Assembly (NCBI GenBank): GCA_030426345.1
Contig: JAUHYU010000001.1
Coordinates: forward strand, 62,001-126,000
Source: Bacteroidia bacterium
Lineage (GTDB): Bacteria > Bacteroidota > Bacteroidia > Cytophagales > Cyclobacteriaceae
Length of the DNA stretch: 64,000 bases
Direction of reading: 5' to 3'
The notes beneath the pieces were generated by a model. The model was not told where the DNA came from. It saw only the letters and a list, made by a program, of their open reading frames with translations, and did not search any database. This document shows positions 2,079 to 62,740 of this stretch, in pieces. The position numbers and the translations under genes are program-made. The first letter of the stretch is position 1, and the number at the start of each line of letters is the position of its first letter.

Positions 2079-4445
2079 TCACTTCAAAATCAAAATAATA
2101 TCTTCTTCCTTTTGATTTCTGACCACACGGATATTTAATTTTCCTTTCCAGTTGTTTCCCTGATAGGCGATCATCAAATCCGCTACATTTTTCACGACAC
2201 TTCCTGCGCTTTGAATAATTACATCTCCAGCCTGCAGTCCTCCTTTTTTGGCTAAGCTTCCATCGGAAACTTTCAATACCAATACTCCGCTGACATCGCT
2301 CAATCCTGCGGCAGAACGCTCGCCCATGGTTTCTATATCCTTTATATCCGCTCCCAGCCATTTTATGGATTTATTGCCTGAAAAATCCATGGCATACATC
2401 ATCAGTGGTGGAATATCCGGTGTTTTGGCAATTTTTTTCAAAGATGGTTTTTGCACACCAAATTGTTGCATCGAAAAGTTCCTAAACCCTAATTTCAAAG
2501 CTGGAGAATTTCCCTGAACACGAAAATCCGCATATACAGGATCTACAAACTTCGCATCACCAAATAAGCTGTGTTCATCCGTGCCATTTTGTTGCGCCTT
2601 TTCCAGAGCTTCCTTGTTCGGAAACAGGTTGTAATCCACTTCCTTGCCCCACCCTTGCAAACGAATATCCTGATGGCCTGTCATGACGATATTCCTTCTG
2701 AATACATCGCCACTATTCTTGAACCACACATGCGGGTGAAACCCATTGTTTACCATAATGTTATTTTCGACAGTCCTATAAAAACCCTCCCTCAGTTTGA
2801 TGCCTCCGTTCAGGCACAGATTGTTATATAAGTGGTAGTTTGATGAGCCATCATCCAAATCTATGTCCCAACCATGATCGCAGCGCATCCTATTATTCCT
2901 AATCACTGTCGTGTGGATCGCATCCCAATATGGCATTTCAGGATTATCCGTAGTGATCTGATCCATCGTCTTTCTATTGGGATGCCAAAAACGGTCCCTA
3001 CCCCATGAATTGAACGCCCCATGATCAGAAGATTGCAGCACTGTATTGAACACATCGTTGAACTCAATGACGTGTCCGCCCCAAGTTCCTTCGCTGACAT
3101 TGATTCCCGCACGGGGAACATCATAAATCGAATTGTGGCGCACGGTAATGTCCATTGCCATGGAAATCTCCACCCCGGCAGTTTGTATTTCAGTTTGTCC
3201 AGTATTGTGAATCAAGTTATCATCCACTAGGCACTCTGATGGATATTCATGGGTTTTAGGGCCTTTTTCAGTGTCAATATCCTGCAAAGGCACAAACTCT
3301 TTATAATTAAAAGAAGGTGACCGCACCGCAGACGGCAATCCGACAAAACAAATTGCACTTGCCCCAATCCCATAAATGTGATTTCCTCTTACGGTCATGT
3401 TTCGGTTGTAACCGGAAAAGAAAATGGCATTTCCGCCAAGGTTTGTCAATTCGCAATCAGTGATGCTACAATTCTCGGCATTTTCAAACCGAATGGCCCC
3501 GGCACTATGAATCATCCAATCACTTCGCAACAAAGGTTCGTATTCCTTCATGAAGGTACGGTTGGTCTGTTCCATCTTGATACCCTTAAAATTGATCTGC
3601 TTAGCAGGATTGTCGTCAGTTCCTTTTATGAAAAATAATTGATCCAACATAGTGACCTCCACGGTCGAATTGTTCAAATCCATATTGTCAAATGGATAGA
3701 AGTAAAGCGTAGATTTTTTAGAGTCAAAATACCACTCACCGGATTCGTCCAATTCTTCGAATACATTTTCTACCATCCGGTATTTCTCGTGCATCGGTGA
3801 CGGACGATTGTTTTGATGGCCACCCTTCAGCACTGGATTTCCGTCTTGATCGACAGATTCAACTTCATAGTAGAAATCACCCCACTCGCCCTTGTGCATT
3901 GCATGTACAATCGCGCCCTCAGGGTGTTCCCATTGACTTACCCTTTTGGGTGAAATGGCATCGGCAGCATAACCGTTAAAATGGCTTGCTGCACTATCGA
4001 TGTTTGGATACCGCGCTAAATGCTGTTGTTTTCCATGAACATAAAGTTGTGCGTAAGGAGAAATATCAACCTTGGTTTTCAGCTTCGTGACCCCACCCTG
4101 ATACACTTTCCATTTACCCGTCAATACTTGAGAACCTTTGACGGTAACTGTTCCGGGCTCATAGGCCTCAAAAGTAACCGGGCCCAATTCTGGGCCCAGT
4201 TTAATTGTTTTTTCTAGATAGTAAGTTCCTGGAAGTAATGAGATTCTAGAGGTATTTTCAGAAGTCTTAATTTGCTTTTGCAATTGCTCCAATGCCGATT
4301 CAATGCTTTTTTTCGGTGCATCCTTTGTCCGTCCATCGTACTTGTCGTTACCGCTGGGACTTACAAAAACCTGTTGGGATTTACTTGTAAAAGCATTAAA
4401 AAAGAACAGTAACAGAACTACATAAAACAGCCTACTCACCACCAA
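2079..4445 (-). CDS. Secreted right-handed beta-helix protein (GH141-like) with C-terminal PDZ domain
   Basis: 788 aa with a signal peptide (residues 1-23). The mature protein opens with the 'VFVSPSGND..DG' strand typical of pectate-lyase-type beta-helix enzymes and continues with many short N/G-rich rungs. The block DHGAFNSWGRD near residues 474-484 resembles the conserved region of GH141-like proteins (fucosidase/xylanase family); that assignment is from memory and tentative. The last 100 residues form a PDZ domain (GVLVLKVSDGSLAKKGGLQ, then AGDVII), unusual on a glycosidase and suggesting substrate or partner docking. It is the last gene of a minus-strand run: 4 bp separate it from the DUF1080 protein upstream, so the two are co-transcribed. 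Likely periplasmic. Confidence 0.75.
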   Translation of the reverse strand: MVVSRLFYVVLLLFFFNAFTSKSQQVFVSPSGNDKYDGRTKDAPKKSIESALEQLQKQIKTSENTSRISLLPGTYYLEKTIKLGPELGPVTFEAYEPGTVTVKGSQVLTGKWKVYQGGVTKLKTKVDISPYAQLYVHGKQQHLARYPNIDSAASHFNGYAADAISPKRVSQWEHPEGAIVHAMHKGEWGDFYYEVESVDQDGNPVLKGGHQNNRPSPMHEKYRMVENVFEELDESGEWYFDSKKSTLYFYPFDNMDLNNSTVEVTMLDQLFFIKGTDDNPAKQINFKGIKMEQTNRTFMKEYEPLLRSDWMIHSAGAIRFENAENCSITDCELTNLGGNAIFFSGYNRNMTVRGNHIYGIGASAICFVGLPSAVRSPSFNYKEFVPLQDIDTEKGPKTHEYPSECLVDDNLIHNTGQTEIQTAGVEISMAMDITVRHNSIYDVPRAGINVSEGTWGGHVIEFNDVFNTVLQSSDHGAFNSWGRDRFWHPNRKTMDQITTDNPEMPYWDAIHTTVIRNNRMRCDHGWDIDLDDGSSNYHLYNNLCLNGGIKLREGFYRTVENNIMVNNGFHPHVWFKNSGDVFRRNIVMTGHQDIRLQGWGKEVDYNLFPNKEALEKAQQNGTDEHSLFGDAKFVDPVYADFRVQGNSPALKLGFRNFSMQQFGVQKPSLKKIAKTPDIPPLMMYAMDFSGNKSIKWLGADIKDIETMGERSAAGLSDVSGVLVLKVSDGSLAKKGGLQAGDVIIQSAGSVVKNVADLMIAYQGNNWKGKLNIRVVRNQKEEDIILILK

Positions 4446-4449
4446 TCTA

Positions 4450-7400
4450 TTAAAGTTCCTTGATCCTGATATTCCTAAAATACACTATAGATCCATGCCC
4501 CAAGTATCCGATATGACCTTTTTTCCTTTTCAACCCCGGATGATCTTTATGGTCTGCGGTACCATTTTTACTAGCCTCTATCATATTTCCATCAAGGATA
4601 ACCGTTCCGTTCAAAATTACCTTTACATGATCACCCTTCACTATTACTTCCTGTGAATTCCATTCTCCGACCGGTTTCAAATATCCTCTCTTTGCAGCAA
4701 TTATGCCGTAGGCCGAACCATGGTATTGGTAAGGCTGAAGGTCTTTATAAATGTCTGCTGTGTTATCTAGGATCTGCAATTCCGTGCCAACATATGCGGC
4801 ATCACCTTCGAGCGGAGCGCGAATGCCCAACCCATTGTTTGCTCCAGGAGTCAATTTAAATTCAAACCTGTAGTTAAAATCTGCATACTCCTTGGCGGTA
4901 AATAAATTGCCATGGCCACCTTTTTCAGGGTAAATCACAAGCTGACCATCCTCAATGACATAAGCAATCTTGTTTCCAACCCAATGATCTAAGTTATCGC
5001 CTTGAAAAAGCGGTGTAAATCCATCAGCAATTTCTTCTTCCGTTATTTTATTTTCACCTGATTGGGAGAGGTCTTTAATATAAATATCCCGAAAACCCAG
5101 TTCATTTCCATGAGCTTGCAATTCTATTTGCTCTACAGGAAAGATTGGCTGAGTACGATCCCAATAATTCTCCAACACCACATTGTCCACCACCAATTGA
5201 CCGTTGAGATAAACAGTAACCTTGTCTCCAATCATCGTGATGTGAAATGTGTTCCAATCGTCTATCGGGTTGTCGGCTACAACGAGGGGAATCCGCTCAT
5301 GCTTTTGATTATTGTATAGTCCGCCTGAACCAACTTGCGCACCAACATCAACCCTAGAAGTATCCCAAACCTGCACCTGTGGCGTACCACGCAAGTAAAT
5401 TCCACTATCACCATTTTTGGATATTCTCCAATCTACCAGCATTTCGAAGTCGCCATATTTTTTGTCTGTACACAAATTATGTCCTTTTCCATTGAACCAA
5501 AGTACGCCATCTTTCACACTCCAAAATTCCGTCATTTCTTCATCTGCCTTGGCCTGCTTCTTGGCCAATTCCTTTTCGCTCATTTTGGCTCTTGCTATTG
5601 GATTTTCCACCAGCCCTTTCCATCCTGACAAATCTTTTCCATTAAAAACAGAAACAAAGCCGGCTTCTTCCGGCATCTCATTCAGGTATTTTTGAATATT
5701 GGCAATATCATAATCACTTTCACCACCTTCAATTATATCAATTACATTTTCCAAAGATTGCCTCACAATAGCTCCAGTCAACCCTTCATGCCCATTTCCC
5801 GGTAAGGCGATTCTCATCACAGATCTCGCAGCATCTTGCTTCAAAGCATTGTCATCCAAATAATTCTTAACAAATGTCAATGCGGTAAATGTATGTATCT
5901 GCCCAATGGATTGTATGGCTTTCCTCTCTACCTCTTCAGATGCCGCAGTACCCATTATCTTTCGGATCAACAAAAGCTTTTGTGCATCTGGAGCATCCGA
6001 ATTATTTACCTGTTGCAAAAACGCCATAGCGGCCTGATTGCCCATTCCCATATCGTTTTCTGAAATATCATACAATGTCGAAGTCGCTTCAAGACCTTTC
6101 CAATTGGTAAGGGCAGTGAATGCGGATTTTTTTAATTTAGCATTGCCTGAATTGAAATTTTCGTTAACAACATCCAAAGCTTCTGTACCTCCCAATTCTG
6201 GCAAAATCTCCAGGAACAAGGCAGTCTTGTCGACATTCAGGCTTTGAGAACCTTGCAAAAAGCTCTTTTTTTCCATGGGTGTTTCCAAGCGCATTGCAAC
6301 CGCCAGTAGTGCATTTTGAATGGCTTTTAATTCCTCCGTATCCGAGGTAGATTGAAAAAGACTAAACAATTTTTGCTGGTCAGATTTTTCCGAAACAGAC
6401 GCCAATGCATTTAATGCGGCGAGTCTAACCTTAGCATCGGAATTAGTTGTTTCCGCGTAAATCACTTCTTTGAAATCCGTTGCTCTTTTTTCAGCCAAGA
6501 TTTCCATCAAGGCAATTTTTGCTTCACCGTTATTTTGAGGAATGGCTTTGGCAACTTCAGCAGCTACCCTGTCTGATTTTAGCCATAGCATGGTTTCTTT
6601 TAGAGATTCCAAAACTTTGCTATCCGCTGTTTGAAATTTGCCTATGAAAATATCGACAGCACCTTCTGGGTTCAACTTAGCCAATGCTCCAATTGCAGCG
6701 ACTTGTATCGCCGACTCATTGCTATTCATGGAATTAAAGGCCATTGCAGATGCCGCAACATCGCCACGGTTGCCAAGCATCGTGATGATCTCAGCCTGCA
6801 CGTTTGCCGGGTAATCTTTCATAATACCCAACCAGAATGATGTTGGCTCGTCGCCCAATTTTTCAGCACCTAAATGCAAAGCCGCTCCCCTCACTTTTAT
6901 ATCTTCGGAAGTAAGTGCCTTTTTCAGGTATTTTTGTGCGTGTTTGCTGTGGTTGCTCACCAACAAACTCAATGCATCTGCACTAGTATGTCCAGTAGAT
7001 TTGCCTATTAATTTCTTGCAGATTTTTTCACTTTTTGCTAATTCACCTTTTTCAGCCAACCGACTGGCATAAAGTAAATAGCTTGCATTGGCACGTGTAG
7101 GTTCAAAATCAAAATTAGCAGTTTCTGCGGCAGATTCCAGTATTTTCCCATGTTTCAATGTTGGTAAATTTGCCAGATAGAACAAACTGACTTTTGTTAA
7201 ATCTGGGTTTGAGGAATTTGTCAAACCAGCAATTTCTCCTTCAGCAGAAGCCACTTTAAGTACACCCAAAGCTTTCACAACAGTGATCTGATTTTTCCCT
7301 GATAAATTGGAAAGTGAAGCGGATAAAGCTTCTCCAGCCTTCGCAGAACCAATAGCAGTAAGTGCTTGAGTTGCCGGTTCGCACAAGCGATTATCCGACA

Positions 7401-7818
7401 GATAGGTACTCAACTGATCTACTGCTTCATCCTTACTTACCAATTGAATTTGCTGGATCAAGAAAGCTGATATCTCCTTATTTTGTTGGCCTTGCAAAGC
7501 TGCTAAATATGCATTGGAAACCATCAGCCTGTCAGAACTGCTACTTGATGAAGTGATGTATTTGGACAGATTCCCTAGCGCAAATCTTACTTTCACATCC
7601 CCGCCCTTTTCTGGAGGGGTAAGCATGTCTGCATATTTTAAGATTCCTTTTTCGCCCAAACTAACCAGCTCTCCCATTTGTTTGTTGAGTATCTCCAAAT
7701 TGGAAGCTGGCATTTCAGTAAGTATATCAGCGATTCTGGTTTCAAAAGTTTTGCCCTGTGCCAGCACAATATTTTGTGCCAGTACCAGAACTATGATTAT
7801 TGATGTTAATTTTCTCAT
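4450..7818 (-). CDS. HEAT-repeat protein with tandem DUF1080 (3-keto-disaccharide hydrolase) domains
   Basis: I place the start at ATG 7816-7818, giving MRKLTSIIIVLVLAQNIVLA as the signal peptide; an upstream ATG would run into the neighbouring gene. The protein is about 1122 aa. Residues about 30-690 are alpha-helical HEAT-like repeats (repeated A-A-x-x-A-L patterns). Two DUF1080 lectin-like sandwiches follow, beginning FVSVFNGKDLSGW (about 718) and FTPLFQGDNLDHW (about 931). DUF1080 is now named 3-keto-disaccharide hydrolase: it cleaves glycosides oxidised at C3 by Gfo/Idh/MocA enzymes. Such an enzyme is the next gene upstream, 57 bp away, which supports a joint periplasmic pathway. The HEAT array plus two catalytic-type domains is an uncommon length. 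Confidence 0.8.
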   Translation of the reverse strand: MRKLTSIIIVLVLAQNIVLAQGKTFETRIADILTEMPASNLEILNKQMGELVSLGEKGILKYADMLTPPEKGGDVKVRFALGNLSKYITSSSSSSDRLMVSNAYLAALQGQQNKEISAFLIQQIQLVSKDEAVDQLSTYLSDNRLCEPATQALTAIGSAKAGEALSASLSNLSGKNQITVVKALGVLKVASAEGEIAGLTNSSNPDLTKVSLFYLANLPTLKHGKILESAAETANFDFEPTRANASYLLYASRLAEKGELAKSEKICKKLIGKSTGHTSADALSLLVSNHSKHAQKYLKKALTSEDIKVRGAALHLGAEKLGDEPTSFWLGIMKDYPANVQAEIITMLGNRGDVAASAMAFNSMNSNESAIQVAAIGALAKLNPEGAVDIFIGKFQTADSKVLESLKETMLWLKSDRVAAEVAKAIPQNNGEAKIALMEILAEKRATDFKEVIYAETTNSDAKVRLAALNALASVSEKSDQQKLFSLFQSTSDTEELKAIQNALLAVAMRLETPMEKKSFLQGSQSLNVDKTALFLEILPELGGTEALDVVNENFNSGNAKLKKSAFTALTNWKGLEATSTLYDISENDMGMGNQAAMAFLQQVNNSDAPDAQKLLLIRKIMGTAASEEVERKAIQSIGQIHTFTALTFVKNYLDDNALKQDAARSVMRIALPGNGHEGLTGAIVRQSLENVIDIIEGGESDYDIANIQKYLNEMPEEAGFVSVFNGKDLSGWKGLVENPIARAKMSEKELAKKQAKADEEMTEFWSVKDGVLWFNGKGHNLCTDKKYGDFEMLVDWRISKNGDSGIYLRGTPQVQVWDTSRVDVGAQVGSGGLYNNQKHERIPLVVADNPIDDWNTFHITMIGDKVTVYLNGQLVVDNVVLENYWDRTQPIFPVEQIELQAHGNELGFRDIYIKDLSQSGENKITEEEIADGFTPLFQGDNLDHWVGNKIAYVIEDGQLVIYPEKGGHGNLFTAKEYADFNYRFEFKLTPGANNGLGIRAPLEGDAAYVGTELQILDNTADIYKDLQPYQYHGSAYGIIAAKRGYLKPVGEWNSQEVIVKGDHVKVILNGTVILDGNMIEASKNGTADHKDHPGLKRKKGHIGYLGHGSIVYFRNIRIKEL

Positions 7819-7874
7819 TGAATTATTCTTTGCTTTAAATATTTTTCTGTGGTGATAATTATTGACTTCGAAAC

Positions 7875-9137
7875 TTAAATAGTCCACGGCCCACGCATCG
7901 GTTGATCAATCAGCCTGTTGGCTCCTTCATCATCAATAAATTGCTGCTTTACAGGATCGTATTTAAGTGATCTTCCCAATCTCAGGGCAATTTTACCCAG
8001 GTTGATAATGGTACAAGATCTGTGTCCATTTTCTTCATTTAATGCAAATTTCTTCCTTGTTTTCACCGAATCGATAAAATCAGTTTGCTGAGGTTCAGGA
8101 TCTGGAAGTGAAGCAAGTTTCTTTTCCAAGTTTGGAATATCAGATCGCATTCTTTTATAAAGCCTCCCTTTAGGGCCTTCCAGAAAGGCAGCGTCTTTAT
8201 CTTTATTTTCACCATCTAAAATAATCTGGCAACCGTCTTCATAGGTATAAGTGATCCTGCGCCAAGAACCAACAGCATCATAGTGTTGTTGTCCTGTATC
8301 TACTTCCACACTTACAGGGCTCGTATTGTCTTTACCCAAAATATACTGAACCGGGTCTAGGTAGTGCTGCCCCATATCTCCCAGTCCGCCACCATCATAG
8401 TCCCAATAACCGCGAAACTTGGCATGGACTCTTTCTACATTATAAGGCTTATATGGCGCAGGCCCAAGCCACATATCGTAGTCCAACTCACTAGGCACTT
8501 TCTGTGGCTTTAAATCAGGATTTCCTGACCAATAAAATTTCCAATTAAACCCTGTGATACCACTCACTGTAGCTTTGATTGGCCAGCCAAGCATATCATT
8601 TTCAACAACTTTTTTAATAGGTTTCACAGGAGTACCAAATCCATAAAATGTACTATCAAACCTAAACCATGTATTTAACCTAAACATCCTACCTTGACGC
8701 TGAACAGTATCTACCAACTTGATACCCTCTCCGATGGTCCGTGTCATGGGTTTTTCACACCATATATCTTTCCCTGCCTTGGCGGCATCTGAAGCGATAA
8801 TACCATGCCAATGTGGTGGTGTAGCAATGTGCACGATATCAATATCAGGCCGTTGCAAAACTTCCCGGTAGTCACTGTATGAATCTACTTCATTACCTAC
8901 CTGATCCAAAGCCAGCTTAATATGACTTTTATCTACATCACATACAGCAAGGAGTTTAGTGCCACCATATTCGAAATGGTTGCGACCCATACCGCCTACG
9001 CCAATGATGGCTTTTGTAAGTTGCTCACTCGGAGCAGTAAATCCAGTACCACCAAGCACGTGACGGGGGACGATATAAAACGCTCCGGCTGTAGCAAGTG
9101 ATTTTTTAATAAAATCCCTCCTATTATTACTCTTCAT
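7875..9137 (-). CDS. Tat-exported Gfo/Idh/MocA family oxidoreductase
   Basis: Start chosen at ATG 9135-9137 so that the protein begins MKSNNRRDFIKKSLATAG, a Tat signal with the NRRDF twin-arginine motif; the eight codons upstream look like leader. The Rossmann loop GVGGMGRNH lies near residue 45 and the conserved EKP (CEKPMTRT) near residue 130. The C-terminal half is the family's alpha/beta dimerisation and substrate domain, ending with the 'DFIDSVKTRKK' and 'GRSLKYDP' blocks typical of exported members. Such enzymes oxidise or epimerise sugars with bound NAD(P) and are paired with DUF1080 hydrolases in 3-keto-glycoside degradation, which fits the next gene. It heads a three-gene minus-strand unit with the DUF1080 and beta-helix genes. 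Confidence 0.85.
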   Translation of the reverse strand: MKSNNRRDFIKKSLATAGAFYIVPRHVLGGTGFTAPSEQLTKAIIGVGGMGRNHFEYGGTKLLAVCDVDKSHIKLALDQVGNEVDSYSDYREVLQRPDIDIVHIATPPHWHGIIASDAAKAGKDIWCEKPMTRTIGEGIKLVDTVQRQGRMFRLNTWFRFDSTFYGFGTPVKPIKKVVENDMLGWPIKATVSGITGFNWKFYWSGNPDLKPQKVPSELDYDMWLGPAPYKPYNVERVHAKFRGYWDYDGGGLGDMGQHYLDPVQYILGKDNTSPVSVEVDTGQQHYDAVGSWRRITYTYEDGCQIILDGENKDKDAAFLEGPKGRLYKRMRSDIPNLEKKLASLPDPEPQQTDFIDSVKTRKKFALNEENGHRSCTIINLGKIALRLGRSLKYDPVKQQFIDDEGANRLIDQPMRGPWTI

Positions 9138-9401
9138 TTCAGTCAATTTTATGATTTTCACTAGGTTTAATTTGCAATATATGGCTTATCTTTTATCGAT
9201 CTTAAGTACAATAGGCATAATTGTTTTCCAAAGACAAATCAGGAATGTAATTATTCTATCGCATGGATTTTCATAGTAGTTCGTACAAACACAAACCAGA
9301 TAAACCCTGACATCTCAAAATTGAATAATATTGAAATAAATTCAAAGACAATCAAGGTAATGTTATCGAACACACATGATAATCTAGCCTACCACAAGAT
9401 C

Positions 9402-10386: not shown

Positions 10387-11463
10387 ATGACGATGAATAA
10401 TAAAGTAAGGGTTATGGTAGTTGGCTGTGGCAATATGGGTTCTTCCCATGCAAGAGCATACCACAAATTGGAAAATTTTGAATTGGTTGGCCTAGTCGAT
10501 CAAAACCAAGAAAATAGGGAACGGCTATCTGATGAATTTGGTGGTGTTGATCAATACGATGATTTTGATACAGCTTTGGCCGTAGCCAAACCAGATGCCG
10601 TAGCAGTTTGTACCTATCCTGGTACTCATGCCGAATTGACTATAAAATCCTTGAAAGCAGGTGCCCATGTATTTTGTGAAAAACCCCTAGCGCCAAATAT
10701 CAAAGACGCGGAGCAAATGGTGGCTGCTGCCGAAAAATATGGCAAGAAACTGGTAATAGGATATATTTTGCGTGTTCATCCTTCATGGAAAAAATTCATT
10801 GAGATTTCACATGGACTCGGAAAACCTTTGGTTATGCGCATGAATCTGAACCAACAGAGCAGCGGAAAAACCTGGCAAACCCATCGCAAGATTCTAGAAA
10901 GCATGTCCCCTATCGTGGACTGCGGCGTACACTATATCGATGTCATGTGTCAAATGACCCGTTCAAAGCCCATCTCTGTAAGCACGATCGGCGCACATCT
11001 TACCGACCAGATCGACAAGGATATGTACAATTATGGTCAGTTACAGGTTCGTTTTGAAGATGGCTCAGTGGGCTGGTACGAAGTGGGCTGGGGCCCAATG
11101 ATGAGTGAAGTCGCCTTTTTCGTAAAGGATGTAATCGGTCCAAAAGGCTGTGTAAATATCATGGATGCAGAAAAAGGAGAGAAAGGATCAGATGATATCG
11201 ACTCACATACAAAAACAAATCGGTTAAAAATTCACTATTCCGAACGGGATGAAAATGATGAATTTACCAAGCCTGACGAAATCGTCAATACAGAGGACGA
11301 GCCGGACCATCAAGGACTATGCGATTTGGAGCAGGAATTTTTCTACAATTCCATAGCCAATGATGCCGACCTTACCAATCACTTAGAAGATGCGGTGAAC
11401 AGCCTAAAAATTGTTTTGGCAGCTGACGAAGCATACCGAACTGGAGAAACAGTAAAGCTTTAA
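10387..11463 (+). CDS. Cytoplasmic Gfo/Idh/MocA family oxidoreductase
   Basis: 358 aa with no signal peptide. The nucleotide-binding loop GCGNMGSSHARAY is at about residues 14-26, an acidic residue ends beta-2 (VDQNQ), and FCEKPLAP carries the conserved EKP near residue 98. The C-terminal domain contains DCGVHYIDV, the H of which matches the usual catalytic His/Asp region. The exact substrate is unclear: inositol, keto-sugar or UDP-sugar dehydrogenases share this fold. It may be the cytoplasmic partner of the exported paralogue at 7875. The HAD phosphatase follows 31 bp downstream on the same strand, so co-transcription is likely. The start could be either of two ATGs six bases apart. Confidence 0.85.
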   Translation: MTMNNKVRVMVVGCGNMGSSHARAYHKLENFELVGLVDQNQENRERLSDEFGGVDQYDDFDTALAVAKPDAVAVCTYPGTHAELTIKSLKAGAHVFCEKPLAPNIKDAEQMVAAAEKYGKKLVIGYILRVHPSWKKFIEISHGLGKPLVMRMNLNQQSSGKTWQTHRKILESMSPIVDCGVHYIDVMCQMTRSKPISVSTIGAHLTDQIDKDMYNYGQLQVRFEDGSVGWYEVGWGPMMSEVAFFVKDVIGPKGCVNIMDAEKGEKGSDDIDSHTKTNRLKIHYSERDENDEFTKPDEIVNTEDEPDHQGLCDLEQEFFYNSIANDADLTNHLEDAVNSLKIVLAADEAYRTGETVKL

Positions 11464-12224: not shown

Positions 12225-15200
12225 GTGACCAATTGCCCCAAAATTATTTTGAAAGCACTTTTTATCGTCCTTTTCTTTTCAGTCCAATTATATGCGCAAC
12301 AGTGGAACCAAAACTATTATGTCAAGCATTTTGGTGCTGAAGAGGGGCTATCCCACACTACTATAAATTGTTTTCATCAAGATGCAAGAGGATACATGTG
12401 GATCGGCACCATTGATGGATTGAACAGGTTTGACGGGAAGAACATGAAAGTGTATCAGGCGAATTCATCCGACTCCAATGCCATCGTAAACGGTCGGATC
12501 AATGTGATCATCGAACACCAACAAAAACTTTGGATTGGTACATCTGAGGGTATCAGCATGTTTGATTACTCGATCAATCGATTTCAAACTTATCAAAGTC
12601 CCGATGGCTTCAACAGGGTAAAAGACCTAGTATATGATTCGCTTAACAATAGAATCTGGATGGCTGCCTCAGATGGTGGACTGAAGTATCTAGACATGGA
12701 TTCTGATAGCATTGAAAGCTTAGAAAGTGAAATAATACGAGATGCTGTACCAAATAAATTGGTGTTGATCAATGGCACGTTATACATAGGAACCATCCAT
12801 CATGGCGTGTACAAAATGGATATAAATACCATGAAAATCCATGAATTTTTCAATTCCAATTCTGACAAATTCCATCTCATTAGCGATAAAATATTGGTAT
12901 TGAAACAATATGATAATGGTCTTTTCATTGGAACAGAAGGTGGTGGTTTTGCAGTACATCATTTCGCCGACTCCACCACCACTTATCGCACTAAAGACAG
13001 AAATAATGAGTCAAAATTTGTGGTGACCTCTTTGGCAAAATACAGTGATCATACCATTATTGTAGGCTCATTGAATGGTGCATATGTTTACAACGAAGAT
13101 TTTGAGATGATTCATTATGAGCGCCACATAAGTGACACCGGCCCTTCTTTGAGTGCCAACGTCCTTAGAGCACTATATCTCGACAAAAACCAAGACCTTT
13201 GGGTAGGCACACGACAAAAGGGGGTCGATTTTCTAGGCAGAGAAAGCTTAGATTTTAACCTTATCAATGCTCAAAATAGCAACTTATCAGGAAACAACAT
13301 CACTGCCTTTGCCCGGGACGAAAAAGAAGGAATCTGGATCGGCACCCTGGAAAATGGTTTAAATTATTATAGAAATGGGAAATTCACAATTTATAAACCT
13401 GAAGACAAGTCCCACTACATTAATAGCAATACCATCAATGATGTTTACACAGATAAAAAAGGAGATGTATGGGCATCTACCCTTGAAGGTGGGTTATCAG
13501 TATTGAAAAATGGAAAATTCAAATCCATAGATGATAATGGCCGAATCACCCCTAAAGAAATCCTCCAAATGTCTGAAGATAATAAGGGCAATTTATGGTT
13601 GGCGACTACCAAAGGGCTTGATAGCTACAACGTGCAAACGGGCACGATCACGCACCACTTTCTGGACAAAGAAAATAAGATAATCAACAAACGTCGAAAT
13701 ATTAGAAGTGTATTTGCTGGCACTTCAGGTAATATTTATATTGGTACAAGCCTCGGGCTGTATGTCTACCATGAAGATAGTGCTGAGGTGCAATTTTATA
13801 ACCATGACATTAAAGACAGCACTTCTCTCAGCAACAATGTGGTTATTAAAATATACGAAGACTCGAAAAATAGAATTTGGCTTGGTACGCTTGGTGGTGG
13901 CCTGATCTATTTTAATGAGCAAGAAGGGACATTCAAGAACTATAACATGCTCCATGGATTTCCAGACAATTCTGTCAAAAGTATTGAAGAAGATGCTGAT
14001 CTCAACTTATGGATAAGCACCAACAATGGCTTGGTGCGTTTCAATCCCGACACTAAAGAGACACTCATTTTTGGTGAATCTTATGGCTTGCAAAACCTAC
14101 AATTCAACATCAACGCTTCTGCCATGTGTGAAGATGGAAACCTGGTTTTTGGTGGGATTGGCGGGTTCAACGTGTTTGATTCAGAAGGAATAAACATGAG
14201 ACGAACGAAACTTCAGGTAGTTCTGACAGGATTGCAATTGTTTGGCCACGACGTGCAGGCCATGGATAAATCGGGCATTTTGACCAAAGATATCAGCCTG
14301 ACAGATGAACTGGTGATTCCATACGATAATGCTCGACATTTTTCTTTTAGCTTTATCACCATGCGATTTTCTAATCCCAACCATATACAATATGCATATA
14401 AATTAATGGGTTTTGAAAATGCCTGGAATTACATAGGAGAAGTCAACAACGTTTCATTCACCAATCTGGAACCGAAAAAATACACGCTGCAAATTATGGC
14501 CAGCGACGATGGGAGATGGAACAACCCGATCAAAACCATAGAAATATCCATCCCCCCGCCGTGGTATATGCAGCTCGTTTTCAGACTGCTTATTATGGCA
14601 CTGATCATGGCGATGATCGGGGCGGTATTTATCTATCGCGGATATGCCCATAAAAAACAGGAGCAAATATTAAAAGCCATGGTAGAAGAGAAGAATCGTG
14701 AAATCACCATACAAAATAAAGAACTACGCTCTGTCAATGAAAATCTTCATGCCCAAAACCTAGCTGTGCTTGAACAAAAAGAAGTGATAGACAGTCAAAA
14801 TAAGATATTGACCACTTTCAGCAATGAACTGAAAACCAGCAATGATTCTTTGGAAAAAAGAGTGGAACTGAGAACCAAGGAGCTTCATGACACAAACAAT
14901 AAGCTGAACAAGACTGTGAAGGAGCTGGATAGGTTTGTCTATAGCGCTTCCCATGATCTGAGTGCACCACTCAAATCAATATTGGGATTAGTAAACATTG
15001 CCAAAATAGACAACACCAATGATAATCTAAAAATACATCTGGAATACATTGAAAACAGCATCAAAAAGCAGGAAGAAGTCATCAAAAGTCTAATACAATA
15101 CTCTAGAAATACGCGGCAAGAAGTGGAACTGGTATCCCTTAGTCTGAATGACCTTGTAGATGATACGATTAAAGAATTGAAATATATGCCGGGTGCTGAG

Positions 15201-15581
15201 CACTTGCACTATATGGTAGAACTCGAATCAGACATAACGATCAGCACAGACACACAGCGGATCAAAATGATCTTGAACAACCTAATCAGCAATGCCATAA
15301 AATATAGAAACCCAGAAAGTGCATCCCCTTATATGAAGATAAGTTATGCCCGCACGGAACACAGCTGGCTTCTAAAAATTGAAGACAATGGACTGGGTAT
15401 CGCAAGCGACCAACATCAGAAAATCTTTGAGATGTTTCACAGGGCTACGGCAACCTCAGACGGCTCTGGGCTGGGATTGTTTATTGTGAAGGAGGCAGTG
15501 GAGCGCCTAAACGGTACAATGGTTTTGGAATCGCGCCTACGTCAAGGATCTACATTCACTATTTCATTTCCATTTGTTTGA
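12225..15581 (+). CDS. Two-component 'reg_prop' sensor histidine kinase
   Basis: 1118 aa from a GTG start that yields a good signal peptide (MTNCPKIILKALFIVLFFSV). Residues about 27-690 contain repeated 'W.GT..G' blades (two regulator-propeller modules in the periplasm), followed by a Y_Y_Y domain near 700-780 ('YKLMGFENAWNYIG') and one membrane helix near 785-805. A coiled coil follows (about 815-895). The kinase core has the phospho-acceptor in SASHDLSAP (His about 910), the N-box NLISNAIKYRNP (about 1019), DNGLGIA (about 1053) and GSGLGLF (about 1079). There is no receiver or AraC domain, so unlike classical hybrid HTCS regulators it needs a separate response regulator, not found in this window. 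Probably senses a glycan fragment. Confidence 0.9.
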   Translation: MTNCPKIILKALFIVLFFSVQLYAQQWNQNYYVKHFGAEEGLSHTTINCFHQDARGYMWIGTIDGLNRFDGKNMKVYQANSSDSNAIVNGRINVIIEHQQKLWIGTSEGISMFDYSINRFQTYQSPDGFNRVKDLVYDSLNNRIWMAASDGGLKYLDMDSDSIESLESEIIRDAVPNKLVLINGTLYIGTIHHGVYKMDINTMKIHEFFNSNSDKFHLISDKILVLKQYDNGLFIGTEGGGFAVHHFADSTTTYRTKDRNNESKFVVTSLAKYSDHTIIVGSLNGAYVYNEDFEMIHYERHISDTGPSLSANVLRALYLDKNQDLWVGTRQKGVDFLGRESLDFNLINAQNSNLSGNNITAFARDEKEGIWIGTLENGLNYYRNGKFTIYKPEDKSHYINSNTINDVYTDKKGDVWASTLEGGLSVLKNGKFKSIDDNGRITPKEILQMSEDNKGNLWLATTKGLDSYNVQTGTITHHFLDKENKIINKRRNIRSVFAGTSGNIYIGTSLGLYVYHEDSAEVQFYNHDIKDSTSLSNNVVIKIYEDSKNRIWLGTLGGGLIYFNEQEGTFKNYNMLHGFPDNSVKSIEEDADLNLWISTNNGLVRFNPDTKETLIFGESYGLQNLQFNINASAMCEDGNLVFGGIGGFNVFDSEGINMRRTKLQVVLTGLQLFGHDVQAMDKSGILTKDISLTDELVIPYDNARHFSFSFITMRFSNPNHIQYAYKLMGFENAWNYIGEVNNVSFTNLEPKKYTLQIMASDDGRWNNPIKTIEISIPPPWYMQLVFRLLIMALIMAMIGAVFIYRGYAHKKQEQILKAMVEEKNREITIQNKELRSVNENLHAQNLAVLEQKEVIDSQNKILTTFSNELKTSNDSLEKRVELRTKELHDTNNKLNKTVKELDRFVYSASHDLSAPLKSILGLVNIAKIDNTNDNLKIHLEYIENSIKKQEEVIKSLIQYSRNTRQEVELVSLSLNDLVDDTIKELKYMPGAEHLHYMVELESDITISTDTQRIKMILNNLISNAIKYRNPESASPYMKISYARTEHSWLLKIEDNGLGIASDQHQKIFEMFHRATATSDGSGLGLFIVKEAVERLNGTMVLESRLRQGSTFTISFPFV

Positions 15582-16541: not shown

Positions 16542-17471
16542 ATGAAAAAACTTCCTGGCGGCTTATGGCCCGTAATGATAACCCCCTTTACCGTAAACAA
16601 CGAAATCGATCATGATGGGGTGCGTAAGGTAACGGATATGTACCTCGCATCGGGTGCCAATGGCATGTTTGCCAATTGCCTTTCAAGCGAAATGTATCAA
16701 TTGACCAAGGACGAGCGGTTGGCACTTACCAAAACGGTGGTAGATCACTGCAAGGGTAAAGTACCTGTAGTTGCTACCGGAAGTTTCTACAATAACAGTA
16801 AAGACAATGCAGATTTCATCAAGGAGATTTATGACATCGGAGTAGATGCTGTCATCCTGATCAGTAGCATTTTGGTTACACCTGAAGAAAGTGATGACAT
16901 CTTGAAAAGAAGGATTGAAGAAATCCTGCAGCAAACAGGTGAAATTCCATTGGGTCTGTATGAATGCCCCGTACCCTACAAGCGCGTGATCAACCCGGAC
17001 ATGATGGAGTGGCTAGCCAATACAGGAAGGTTTTGGTATCACAAAGACACAACCTGCGATGCTGGAGCTATCAAACCAAAAATCGACAAGATCGCCGGCT
17101 CCAATTTCCAATTATATAATGCCGACACTCCATCAGCTTTGCAGTCATTGAAAGACGGTGCCATGGGAATTTCCCCTATTTCTGGCAATTTCTACCCGGA
17201 ACTGTATGGACATTATCTTAAGCTATTTGCTGCAAAAGATTGGGAGAACCTGGAAAGACTTCATGCCAAACTATCTGTCATGGACAAGGTAACGCACGAA
17301 TTCTATCCATGGTCTCCAAAGGTATTCTTAGAAATGAGGGGTCTCGACATTTGCACCAACACCAGGATTCCTATGGGCACAATGATAGAGAAGGATAGAA
17401 ATATTTTAAATGCCCTGTACCAGATGTTTTTGCAAATCATGGATGAATTCAATATCAAGCCGGTAATCTAA
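16542..17471 (+). CDS. Dihydrodipicolinate synthase/N-acetylneuraminate lyase family protein
   Basis: 309 aa TIM barrel of the class I aldolase DapA/NanA family. The Schiff-base lysine is in WYHKDTTCD (Lys about 168) and the catalytic tyrosine in LYECPVPYK (Tyr about 140); the usual GxxGE-type loop is altered to ANCLSSEMYQL. The alteration suggests it is not housekeeping DapA but a catabolic lyase or dehydratase for a keto-sugar acid. It is followed 41 bp later by a sodium:solute symporter, with a hairpin overlapping its stop codon. The pair probably imports and splits a sugar acid. N-acetylneuraminate is one option because sialidase-fold proteins occur in the window, but this is only a guess. 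Confidence 0.85.
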   Translation: MKKLPGGLWPVMITPFTVNNEIDHDGVRKVTDMYLASGANGMFANCLSSEMYQLTKDERLALTKTVVDHCKGKVPVVATGSFYNNSKDNADFIKEIYDIGVDAVILISSILVTPEESDDILKRRIEEILQQTGEIPLGLYECPVPYKRVINPDMMEWLANTGRFWYHKDTTCDAGAIKPKIDKIAGSNFQLYNADTPSALQSLKDGAMGISPISGNFYPELYGHYLKLFAAKDWENLERLHAKLSVMDKVTHEFYPWSPKVFLEMRGLDICTNTRIPMGTMIEKDRNILNALYQMFLQIMDEFNIKPVI

Positions 17472-60808: not shown

Positions 60809-62740
60809 TTATTGATTACCCCAACCAGGGTTTTGCTTTAAAGCCGGATTCAACTCGATCTGAGTTGTAGGAACAGGATCAAGATAGTTTTTCTTGCTAA
60901 AAAGTCTGTTTCCAGCATTATCAATGATCAAAGCACCTGCTTTAGTTGTAGCAATTCCTGAATAGCTATATGCAGGCTCTTCTTCGGTAGTCAATCCATG
61001 AGCCCATACAGCTGGATCAAAGATATTTGAACTTGGATCTTTTGGATTTACTGCAGTCTCATATTCTGTGCTGGCTCCTCCATATTGAACATATGCAGTA
61101 CATATATTCCTGTTGAGTTCTGTTTCAGCAATTCCCCAACGCTTTAAATCACTAAATCGGAATCCTTCGCCAAATAATTCAATGCCTCTTTCCCTCCTAA
61201 TCTCACCTAACATATTGAGGTCACTATAAGGCGCGATCAAAGCAGCAGTCAATGGAGCAACACCAGCCCTTTCCCTCAATAAATTGATTGAAAGATCAAG
61301 GTCTCCATCTGAAATAGATCCACTACCAAGTTCAACAGTTGCTTCAGCATATATCAACAATACTTCACCATACCTGATCAGTGGATAATTCTCTGAGGCT
61401 TCATTTTGTTGACGTCCTCTGTGATTTGAAACCATCTTGAACCCTTGGTAACCTAAATTACGACCATTCGATGGCGCATCTAGATTTGGCACATATCTGA
61501 AGTCAAAACTCTGGTCCTCAATATTTTCATTCCAGATGCCTCCACCGCCACGTCCACTGGCTCCGTAGCCCCAGTAATAGTCTATGGGAACAGCGACAAA
61601 AGAAGCAACACGAAGATCACGGTTTTGAAACTCATCGACCATATTGTCGTAACCCTGGAACAATGATGAATGCTGGATTGGCAAACCATCGGTGCAAAGG
61701 TACATATCCATCAATTTACGGTTAGGACTAACCGGCATCGCGTGCTGGTTGTTATGCCTGGTCTGACGGAAGGTATAGTCATAAATAGTCTGAAAAATGA
61801 ATTCCTTATTATCGGCCTTTGTTAGGCCGGCAGGATTATCTCCACCATCATCCAGCGTAAACAAGTAATGGAGGTGCCTGTCTCCTAATTCAGCCCGCTT
61901 GTCCCAAAGTTCAAATTGGCCACCAGTAATAATACCTGAAGCCAAGCTTTTCGCCTCATTGAGCATATCATCGACAGATGGATATCCAGCAGGCTTTGCA
62001 GAACCTGCTTCACCATCAGTTGAATTACCTACATACTTTTCCCAGGTGGCTTGGAAAAGCAGTATGCGGGCTTTAAAAGCTTGAGCTGCTTCTTTGCTTA
62101 GTTTACCGAGATCACTAGAGCTCAGGCTGCTTTGACTAGGAAGCAAGGCAATAGCTTGATCTAAATCATCAAATATCTGTTTTGCCACTTCATAACGGCT
62201 GTTCCTTGGCCCATATAAAACTTCTGAAGAAATATCCAGAGCGGTAGTAACAATTGGCACACCACCAAAGCGAACCAATAATTTGTTGTGATGCCAAGCC
62301 CTGAAAAAGTAAGCTGTTCCCATGGGTACCGCTATCTCTGACACTTCACCAGGATAAAGCTCTACCTTATCCAGTAGCTGGTTTACAGCTCGCATTTGAT
62401 TGTAATTGTCTTCCCAAACATCATCCTCATTGGGTGCAAGCGAGTATCCCTGTCCATACTGTCTTTCAGATCCATATCCAATGTTGGTAGATAGATCAGA
62501 TGCAGCATCATATTCCTGACTACCAACCTGACTTGTACCACCAGTACCGGATTCATAACCTAAACGGGTATACAAATAATTAGCCGCTAGTTCAAATTGG
62601 TCTGGAGTTTCGTAGTATACAGCTTCTGAAACGAAATCCTGTGGATCCTGATCCAGGAAATCCTGACAACTGCTCATGAACAAGCCCACAAATAAAAGCG
62701 CCAGACTTAGTCCTTTTATATTAATACTTATATTTTTCAT
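60809..62740 (-). CDS. SusD/RagB-family glycan-binding lipoprotein
   Basis: Start at ATG 62738-62740 (MKNISINIKGLSLALLFVG); nine codons further upstream would cross the likely leader. 643 aa. The lipobox is 'GLFMSSCQ' (Cys about 26) followed by DFLDQDPQDFVSEA, the acidic lipoprotein start that marks surface export in Bacteroidota. TPR-like helices ('YFFRAWHHNKLLVRFGGVP') and the C-terminal 'IELFGEGFRFSDLKRWG' are family hallmarks. It forms the lid of the SusC channel and binds glycans at the cell surface. It lies 29 bp from susC and precedes a strong terminator. Confidence 0.95.
   Translation of the reverse strand: MKNISINIKGLSLALLFVGLFMSSCQDFLDQDPQDFVSEAVYYETPDQFELAANYLYTRLGYESGTGGTSQVGSQEYDAASDLSTNIGYGSERQYGQGYSLAPNEDDVWEDNYNQMRAVNQLLDKVELYPGEVSEIAVPMGTAYFFRAWHHNKLLVRFGGVPIVTTALDISSEVLYGPRNSRYEVAKQIFDDLDQAIALLPSQSSLSSSDLGKLSKEAAQAFKARILLFQATWEKYVGNSTDGEAGSAKPAGYPSVDDMLNEAKSLASGIITGGQFELWDKRAELGDRHLHYLFTLDDGGDNPAGLTKADNKEFIFQTIYDYTFRQTRHNNQHAMPVSPNRKLMDMYLCTDGLPIQHSSLFQGYDNMVDEFQNRDLRVASFVAVPIDYYWGYGASGRGGGGIWNENIEDQSFDFRYVPNLDAPSNGRNLGYQGFKMVSNHRGRQQNEASENYPLIRYGEVLLIYAEATVELGSGSISDGDLDLSINLLRERAGVAPLTAALIAPYSDLNMLGEIRRERGIELFGEGFRFSDLKRWGIAETELNRNICTAYVQYGGASTEYETAVNPKDPSSNIFDPAVWAHGLTTEEEPAYSYSGIATTKAGALIIDNAGNRLFSKKNYLDPVPTTQIELNPALKQNPGWGNQ

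Follow-up and report, generated by a model that had tools for sequence, protein, structure and literature searches.

We analysed a 64,000-nucleotide stretch of the genome of a Bacteroidia bacterium of the family Cyclobacteriaceae (assembly GCA_030426345.1, contig JAUHYU010000001.1, forward-strand positions 62,001 to 126,000; hereafter the window), in which three open reading frames (ORFs) follow one another on the minus strand, at 7875-9161, 4450-7887 and 2079-4445 in the ORF listing. The first encodes a Gfo/Idh/MocA oxidoreductase with a twin-arginine translocation (Tat) signal, which we predict from Pfam matches, invariant residues and solved relatives to be a periplasmic glycoside 3-dehydrogenase. 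The second encodes a fusion of a HEAT-repeat region to two DUF1080 domains, with a Sec-type signal peptide recognised by inspection. Inspection of the sequence placed the likely starts at ATG 9137 for the oxidoreductase (7875-9137, minus strand) and ATG 7818 for the fusion (4450-7818, minus strand; 1122 amino acids), and with these starts 56 base pairs (bp) separate the two genes. The fusion comprises, in order, a HEAT alpha-solenoid (5698-7752, limits approximate, drawn from the HEAT_2 match, a structure model and sequence identity), a first DUF1080 domain with a helical insertion, D1 (5068-5673), and a second DUF1080 domain, D2 (4453-5034), all on the minus strand. D1 carries D827 and Q837xQ839 and is of the Q type; D2, the predicted active eliminase/hydratase, carries N1017 and E1036xQ1038 and is of the E type (residue numbers for both domains are those of the 1145-residue ORF).

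The domain assignment of the fusion is supported by profiles and by predicted structure. Pfam matched PF06439 (DUF1080) twice, at 276 bits for the whole protein against a cut-off of 26.8, together with HEAT_2 at 64 bits, and in a search of the genome D1 and D2 each scored above the PF06439 cut-off. An AlphaFold model of the whole fusion (mean predicted local distance difference test score, pLDDT, of 88.6) consists of an alpha-solenoid followed by two beta-rich domains. D2 aligned with 9fbe at a Z score of 24.1 and a root-mean-square deviation (rmsd) of 2.4 over 197 residues, and with 8v31, 8rr2 and 8tda at Z scores of 23.4, 23.2 and 23.1; four structures without a described function equal or slightly exceed these scores. 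D1, folded alone (pLDDT 89.4), aligned with 9fbe at a Z score of 21.2 and an rmsd of 2.0 over 174 residues. The titles of 9fbe and 8rr2 describe a 3-keto-glycoside eliminase/hydratase, with 2-hydroxy-3-keto-glucal and alpha-3-keto-glucose, and those of 8tda and 8v31 a 3-keto-2-hydroxy-glucal hydratase; "hydrolase" is Pfam's name for the family, whereas depositors of solved members use eliminase/hydratase or hydratase. We predict D2 to be an eliminase/hydratase. Median pairwise identity was 27% for the HEAT region, 62% for D1 and 65% for D2 (29 of 31 aligned fusions, leaving out L077 and L063 (incomplete)), and 68% for the oxidoreductase (24 sequences). Hence, D1, D2 and the oxidoreductase are similarly constrained, and the HEAT scaffold is fast evolving. 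It also varies in length, the fusion at L077 being a 705-residue version.

We next asked how often the two genes are inherited together, using search thresholds of E <= 1e-110 for the fusion and E <= 1e-130 for the oxidoreductase and counting the window's own genome. The fusion was found in 33/390 genomes of the same family and in 9/395 genomes sampled across the phylum; the corresponding numbers for the oxidoreductase were 33/390 and 15/395. Both genes were present in 32 of the family genomes (Fisher p ~1e-44, uncorrected for shared ancestry), and all nine fusion carriers of the phylum sample also had the oxidoreductase. The mismatches within the family are contig ends: in G410 the start of the HEAT gene is present and the contig then stops, and in G408 the HEAT gene runs up to the contig end. 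ORF calls with wide flanks placed the oxidoreductase directly upstream of the fusion, on the same strand, in 36 of 38 fetched loci; a six-frame scan added a 37th (L078), in which a longer antisense ORF overlaps the oxidoreductase. Match coordinates gave the same order in 6/6 family loci that were not fetched, such that the order is kept in 43/44 loci overall, the exception being the contig end in G408. Because the arrangement is conserved across the phylum, it is real and is not a product of chance or of an assembly join, and the oxidoreductase and the HEAT fusion form a conserved, co-inherited two-gene module. The pairing of a Tat-exported oxidoreductase with a HEAT-DUF1080-DUF1080 protein, put forward in the original prediction from the window's sequence, is therefore upheld by the comparison of neighbourhoods.

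We then compared the two DUF1080 domains in an alignment of 114 such domains (two domains of this genome, L126 and L130, with <150 residues matched, are excluded from the motif table). D2 has N1017 and E1036xQ1038 in 38/38 fusions. The ExQ motif is shared with BT2157 (3osd) and 8rr2, both of which read peyqvld, and D2 keeps the family-conserved motif columns except for Ser-to-Asn at 1018 and Gln-to-Leu at 1129. D1 likewise has D827 and His 926 in 38/38 fusions; its other motif is Q837xQ839 in 37/38 and KxQ in one, so the ExQ of the BT2157 type is absent. An earlier study, with BT3761 as its anchor, presents putative active-site positions in 240 members of the family (PMC9765024, in excerpts). 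As far as conservation tells, D2 keeps the motif, and hence the two domains do not both lack catalytic residues, the outcome that the original prediction had named as fatal to it. The D1 domains form a single clade of 38 (100/100 support) and are therefore an old, separate lineage. D2 domains are interleaved with stand-alone copies in the tree (L080_5080, one of the 12 rows labelled stand-alone, is another kind of DUF1080); the F2 label requires 4 changes, of which starred branches force at least 3, and D2 has therefore probably undergone fission or fusion more than once. We also considered a recent replacement of D2 by a stand-alone copy and rejected it for the window's lineage, in which D2 groups with the D2 of the congener G004 (98/94) rather than with stand-alone copies.

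The oxidoreductase matched GFO_IDH_MocA and GFO_IDH_MocA_C2 in Pfam (481 bits, both domains above cut-off), and its nearest solved relatives are 8tdf/8tdh. Its N-terminus carries a twin-arginine motif, NNRRDFIKK, recognised by eye, in which R6, R7 and F9 are invariant in 24/24 aligned orthologues (14 of the 38 loci are left out of this alignment); export via Tat is predicted from this conserved signal. K129 of the EKP motif, D254 and H258 are also invariant in all 24. Separately, in-match stop codons were reported in the oxidoreductase copies of G293 and G024.

Taken together, these data lead us to favour, with reasonable but far from complete confidence, a conserved two-gene periplasmic module that cleaves glycosides by a stepwise 3-keto route. 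The Tat-exported oxidoreductase would oxidise the C3 hydroxyl of a glycoside; elimination from the 3-keto-glycoside would give 2-hydroxy-3-keto-glucal and the aglycone, and hydration of the glucal would yield a free 3-keto sugar. Elimination, hydration or both are probably catalysed by D2. D1 would complement it by performing one half-step, by accepting another anomer or by keeping the substrate in place. The HEAT solenoid is predicted to be a variable-length scaffold for the two DUF1080 domains, and it may serve as a docking point for the oxidoreductase or the envelope; the structure matches listed for it were all generic solenoids (importins, CAND1, designed repeats), which point to no particular ligand. 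Glucose-fructose oxidoreductase is a model for redox-neutral recycling with bound nicotinamide adenine dinucleotide (NAD), and because a Tat-exported enzyme would carry bound nucleotide, the oxidoreductase may likewise re-reduce the released 3-keto sugar in a redox-neutral cycle. Cleavage of C3-oxidised glycosides, the chemistry originally proposed, is thus supported by the gene pair and by the fold; what changes is that the bond would be broken by elimination and hydration rather than by hydrolysis.

Several points weigh against this interpretation. The architecture, co-inheritance, folds and motif asymmetry of the module are observed, but its export and periplasmic location, its activity on glycosides, the division of labour and the scaffold role of the HEAT region are predictions. 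In the oxidoreductase, the invariant Lys, Asp and His are presumably catalytic, as in its family, and a catalytic role for the DUF1080 Glu is suggested by its conservation; in D2, the position two residues ahead of the conserved His, Gln in most members, is Leu. The top NCBIfam model for the oxidoreductase, BT_2158_fam (NF058561), scored 157 bits against an equivalog cut-off of 750, so the protein is not an equivalog member and its substrate may differ from that of BT_2158. Similarity clustering of neighbours in the fetched loci, few of which were scanned with Pfam, gave no family that recurs in all clades, although some recur within clades, and hence no transporter or regulator that would indicate a substrate. 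Six genomes of the phylum sample have the oxidoreductase without the double-domain fusion, and this holds at a laxer threshold. In five of the six, a protein with one E-type DUF1080 domain lies directly downstream of the oxidoreductase; all five of these proteins match the HEAT profile, L143 weakly, and of three scanned with Pfam, L144 and L145 had HEAT_2 above cut-off and L143 had none. D1 is therefore dispensable in the module of these five genomes, whereas the association of the oxidoreductase with an E-type domain persists without it, a point in favour of the module. D1-like domains are found elsewhere in two of the five (G606 and G577). In the sixth genome, G533 (L142:4027-7528), no HEAT-DUF1080 gene adjoins the oxidoreductase, which is preceded there by a 657-residue ORF.

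The strongest alternative, to which we give appreciable weight without preferring it, is that D1 is a non-catalytic, lectin-like substrate holder, that D2 is the sole enzyme and that HEAT-D1 forms a binding platform. It overlaps the stepwise 3-keto route as set out above, which leaves several roles possible for D1. It would account for the missing ExQ Glu in D1 (Gln in 37 of 38 domains, Lys in one) and for the five genomes whose module retains an E-type domain alone, and it is consistent with the D1 fold list, where CBM66 (4azz; Z score 14.6) comes next after the DUF1080 entries, with lectins at or below it. Those DUF1080 entries, however, stand well above the lectins, and D1 is almost as conserved as D2, with Asp 827 and His 926 in every copy, which suggests more than loose binding.

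A more distant alternative, taken from the original prediction, is a scaffold with two equivalent active sites that works with a beta-helix enzyme on a large glycan. One polypeptide does hold two PF06439 domains, and the third ORF of the window (2079-4445, minus strand; TTG start as listed), which starts 4 bp past the stop of the HEAT gene, encodes a protein with Pfam matches to Beta_helix (41 bits) and to PDZ (at or just under cut-offs). However, D1 has Gln where characterised members have Glu, and the asymmetry between D1 and D2 is seen in 38/38 fusions, leaving the second equivalent site unsupported. A larger glycan as substrate is likewise not supported. Nor did the beta-helix gene hold its place in the unit. 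It falls outside 4450-9137, the span that the prediction concerned; relatives occur in 10/59 genomes, the window's own included, and only three genomes of that sample (G000, G022 and G046) have both this gene and the fusion, which lie side by side in the window's genome alone and on different contigs in G022 and G046. When the ORFs of the fetched loci were searched, G001, a congener lacking the fusion, alone yielded a beta-helix relative, which follows a stand-alone DUF1080 gene there. We therefore rejected the beta-helix gene as a third member of the module; from Pfam and the neighbourhood comparison it qualifies as a local neighbour that may be co-transcribed in this genome, and we consider the scaffold with two equivalent sites improbable. 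Equally doubtful is action of the fusion on unoxidised glycans, for which THTE_1561, named in the excerpts of PMC9007349 as a characterised single-DUF1080 enzyme, might speak, given the near-perfect co-inheritance of the fusion with the oxidoreductase and the fact that the best-matching structures of described function are eliminase/hydratases.

The pairing of a Q-type with an E-type domain extends beyond the HEAT fusion. The family is common in the window's genome, with 29 PF06439 matches; among its 21 single-domain DUF1080 rows the motif position is Glu in 16 and Gln in 5. We recognised 15 further two-DUF1080 proteins, all HEAT-less, among the matches listed for 17 genomes. Every one of the 15 has one Q-type and one E-type domain, with the Q-type domain first in 14 and the E-type domain first in one (L149), and the two HEAT-less two-DUF1080 proteins of the window's own genome are also one Q and one E, making 17/17 read in total. 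Note that 14 of the 15 resemble the own genome's two, domain by domain, so these 17 are far from 17 independent events; L149, which joins other subfamilies, probably represents a second origin of the pairing, and the HEAT fusion a third. Unfused adjacent DUF1080 genes are mixed, with Q and E types at L163, L166 and L125 and E types only at L164 and L165. The L125 pair (own genome, contig C96, L125:5668-7087) consists of two adjacent, very similar genes reading QxQ and ExQ. In G606, whose HEAT protein has only an E-type domain, a D1-like Q-type gene (45% identity) lies between two E-type DUF1080 genes (types read by eye), as would be expected of cooperating Q and E types. The surrounding cluster (L167:1-11900) holds genes for a TonB-dependent receptor, SusD, two Gfo/Idh/MocA proteins, the three DUF1080 proteins, a PIG-L deacetylase and a sulfatase. 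No partner of either kind, DUF1080 or oxidoreductase, accompanies the weaker D1-like gene of G577 (36%) within the fetched 8.5 kb, a misfit to such cooperation.

These pairs allow a bolder proposal, which we regard as speculative and on present evidence rather unlikely: DUF1080 proteins may fall into two complementary classes, an E type (ExQ) and a Q type (QxE, or QxQ with Asp), paired on successive half-steps. The split might, for example, be elimination by one class and hydration by the other, or action on two anomers. The HEAT protein, by fusing both classes and docking a Tat-exported oxidoreductase with trapped NAD, would then act as a self-sufficient glycosidase that has three active sites and is redox-neutral.

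The closest described systems share parts of the module. In Bacteroides thetaiotaomicron, the periplasmic glycoside 3-dehydrogenase BT2158 accompanies the DUF1080 protein BT2157. The excerpts of PMC9007349 call BT2157 a 3-ketotrehalose hydrolase, and those of PMC11300592 report that BT2158 is required in the metabolism of disaccharides and glucosinolates; by analogy, this lends support to the oxidoreductase part of our interpretation. D2 shares the ExQ motif and fold of BT2157 (3osd; relatives or copies 8tda, 8rr2 and 9fbe). By contrast, BT2157 has a single DUF1080 domain, rather than two unlike domains fused to a HEAT solenoid, and the oxidoreductase described here lies far below the BT_2158 family cut-off. 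The top match of the fusion, both by sequence and by Foldseek, is BT3469 (4jqt), a tandem of two DUF1080 domains of which one reads QxE and the other ExQ in the alignments; unlike the fusion, it is a 431-residue chain without a HEAT region. The Q-type domain of BT3469-type tandems has QxE with Asn and belongs to another branch than D1, which has QxQ with Asp. A literature search naming BT3469 found no function for it.

In Agrobacterium tumefaciens, elimination, hydration and reduction of 3-keto-glycosides are separate steps, carried out by AtOGE, AtHYD and Gfo (PMC10628242, in excerpts). The eliminase AtOGE is described there as a Mn-dependent barrel enzyme and the proposed hydratase as a protein annotated as a sugar phosphate isomerase, and those excerpts describe neither as a DUF1080 protein. 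Caulobacter CCNA_01705 is a DUF1080 protein proposed for periplasmic cleavage of 3-keto-disaccharides, but its DUF1080 is single-domain and the dehydrogenase is LacABC (PMC9007349, in excerpts). We found no description of a HEAT-DUF1080 fusion in the openly licensed literature, to which our search was confined, and make no claim that it is absent from print. The chemistry is known, and the HEAT architecture with an unequal DUF1080 pair appears to be a distinct variant.

Pfam scans of 10 window ORFs between 299 and 17471 found no member of the SusC/SusD families. Three neighbouring proteins gave no Pfam match and a fourth is a serpin. Further along the window, 12225-15581 encodes a regulator that combines Reg_prop, Y_Y_Y and histidine kinase domains; near it lie a second Gfo/Idh/MocA gene (10387-11463; the Rossmann domain of its product starts at residue 7) and a gene of the DHDPS family (16542-17471). 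Related genes also adjoin the module elsewhere. In G425 (L078:275-13930) a second set, comprising a Gfo/Idh/MocA gene, a ThuA-HEAT fusion and a DUF1080 gene, lies beside it, and a further Tat-signal Gfo/Idh/MocA gene lies just downstream of the fusion. In the congener G004 (L096:2484-8194), a stand-alone DUF1080 gene, the oxidoreductase and the fusion stand in one row.

Only recently has the oxidise-eliminate-hydrate route been recognised as an alternative to ordinary glycosidases, and its fused, co-inherited form is well suited to clean tests of how DUF1080 domains share the work. The pairing of one Q-type with one E-type domain is a simple sequence rule by which a large and loosely annotated family could be split into two classes of different function; should the rule hold, many proteins that now carry the name hydrolase would have to be renamed.

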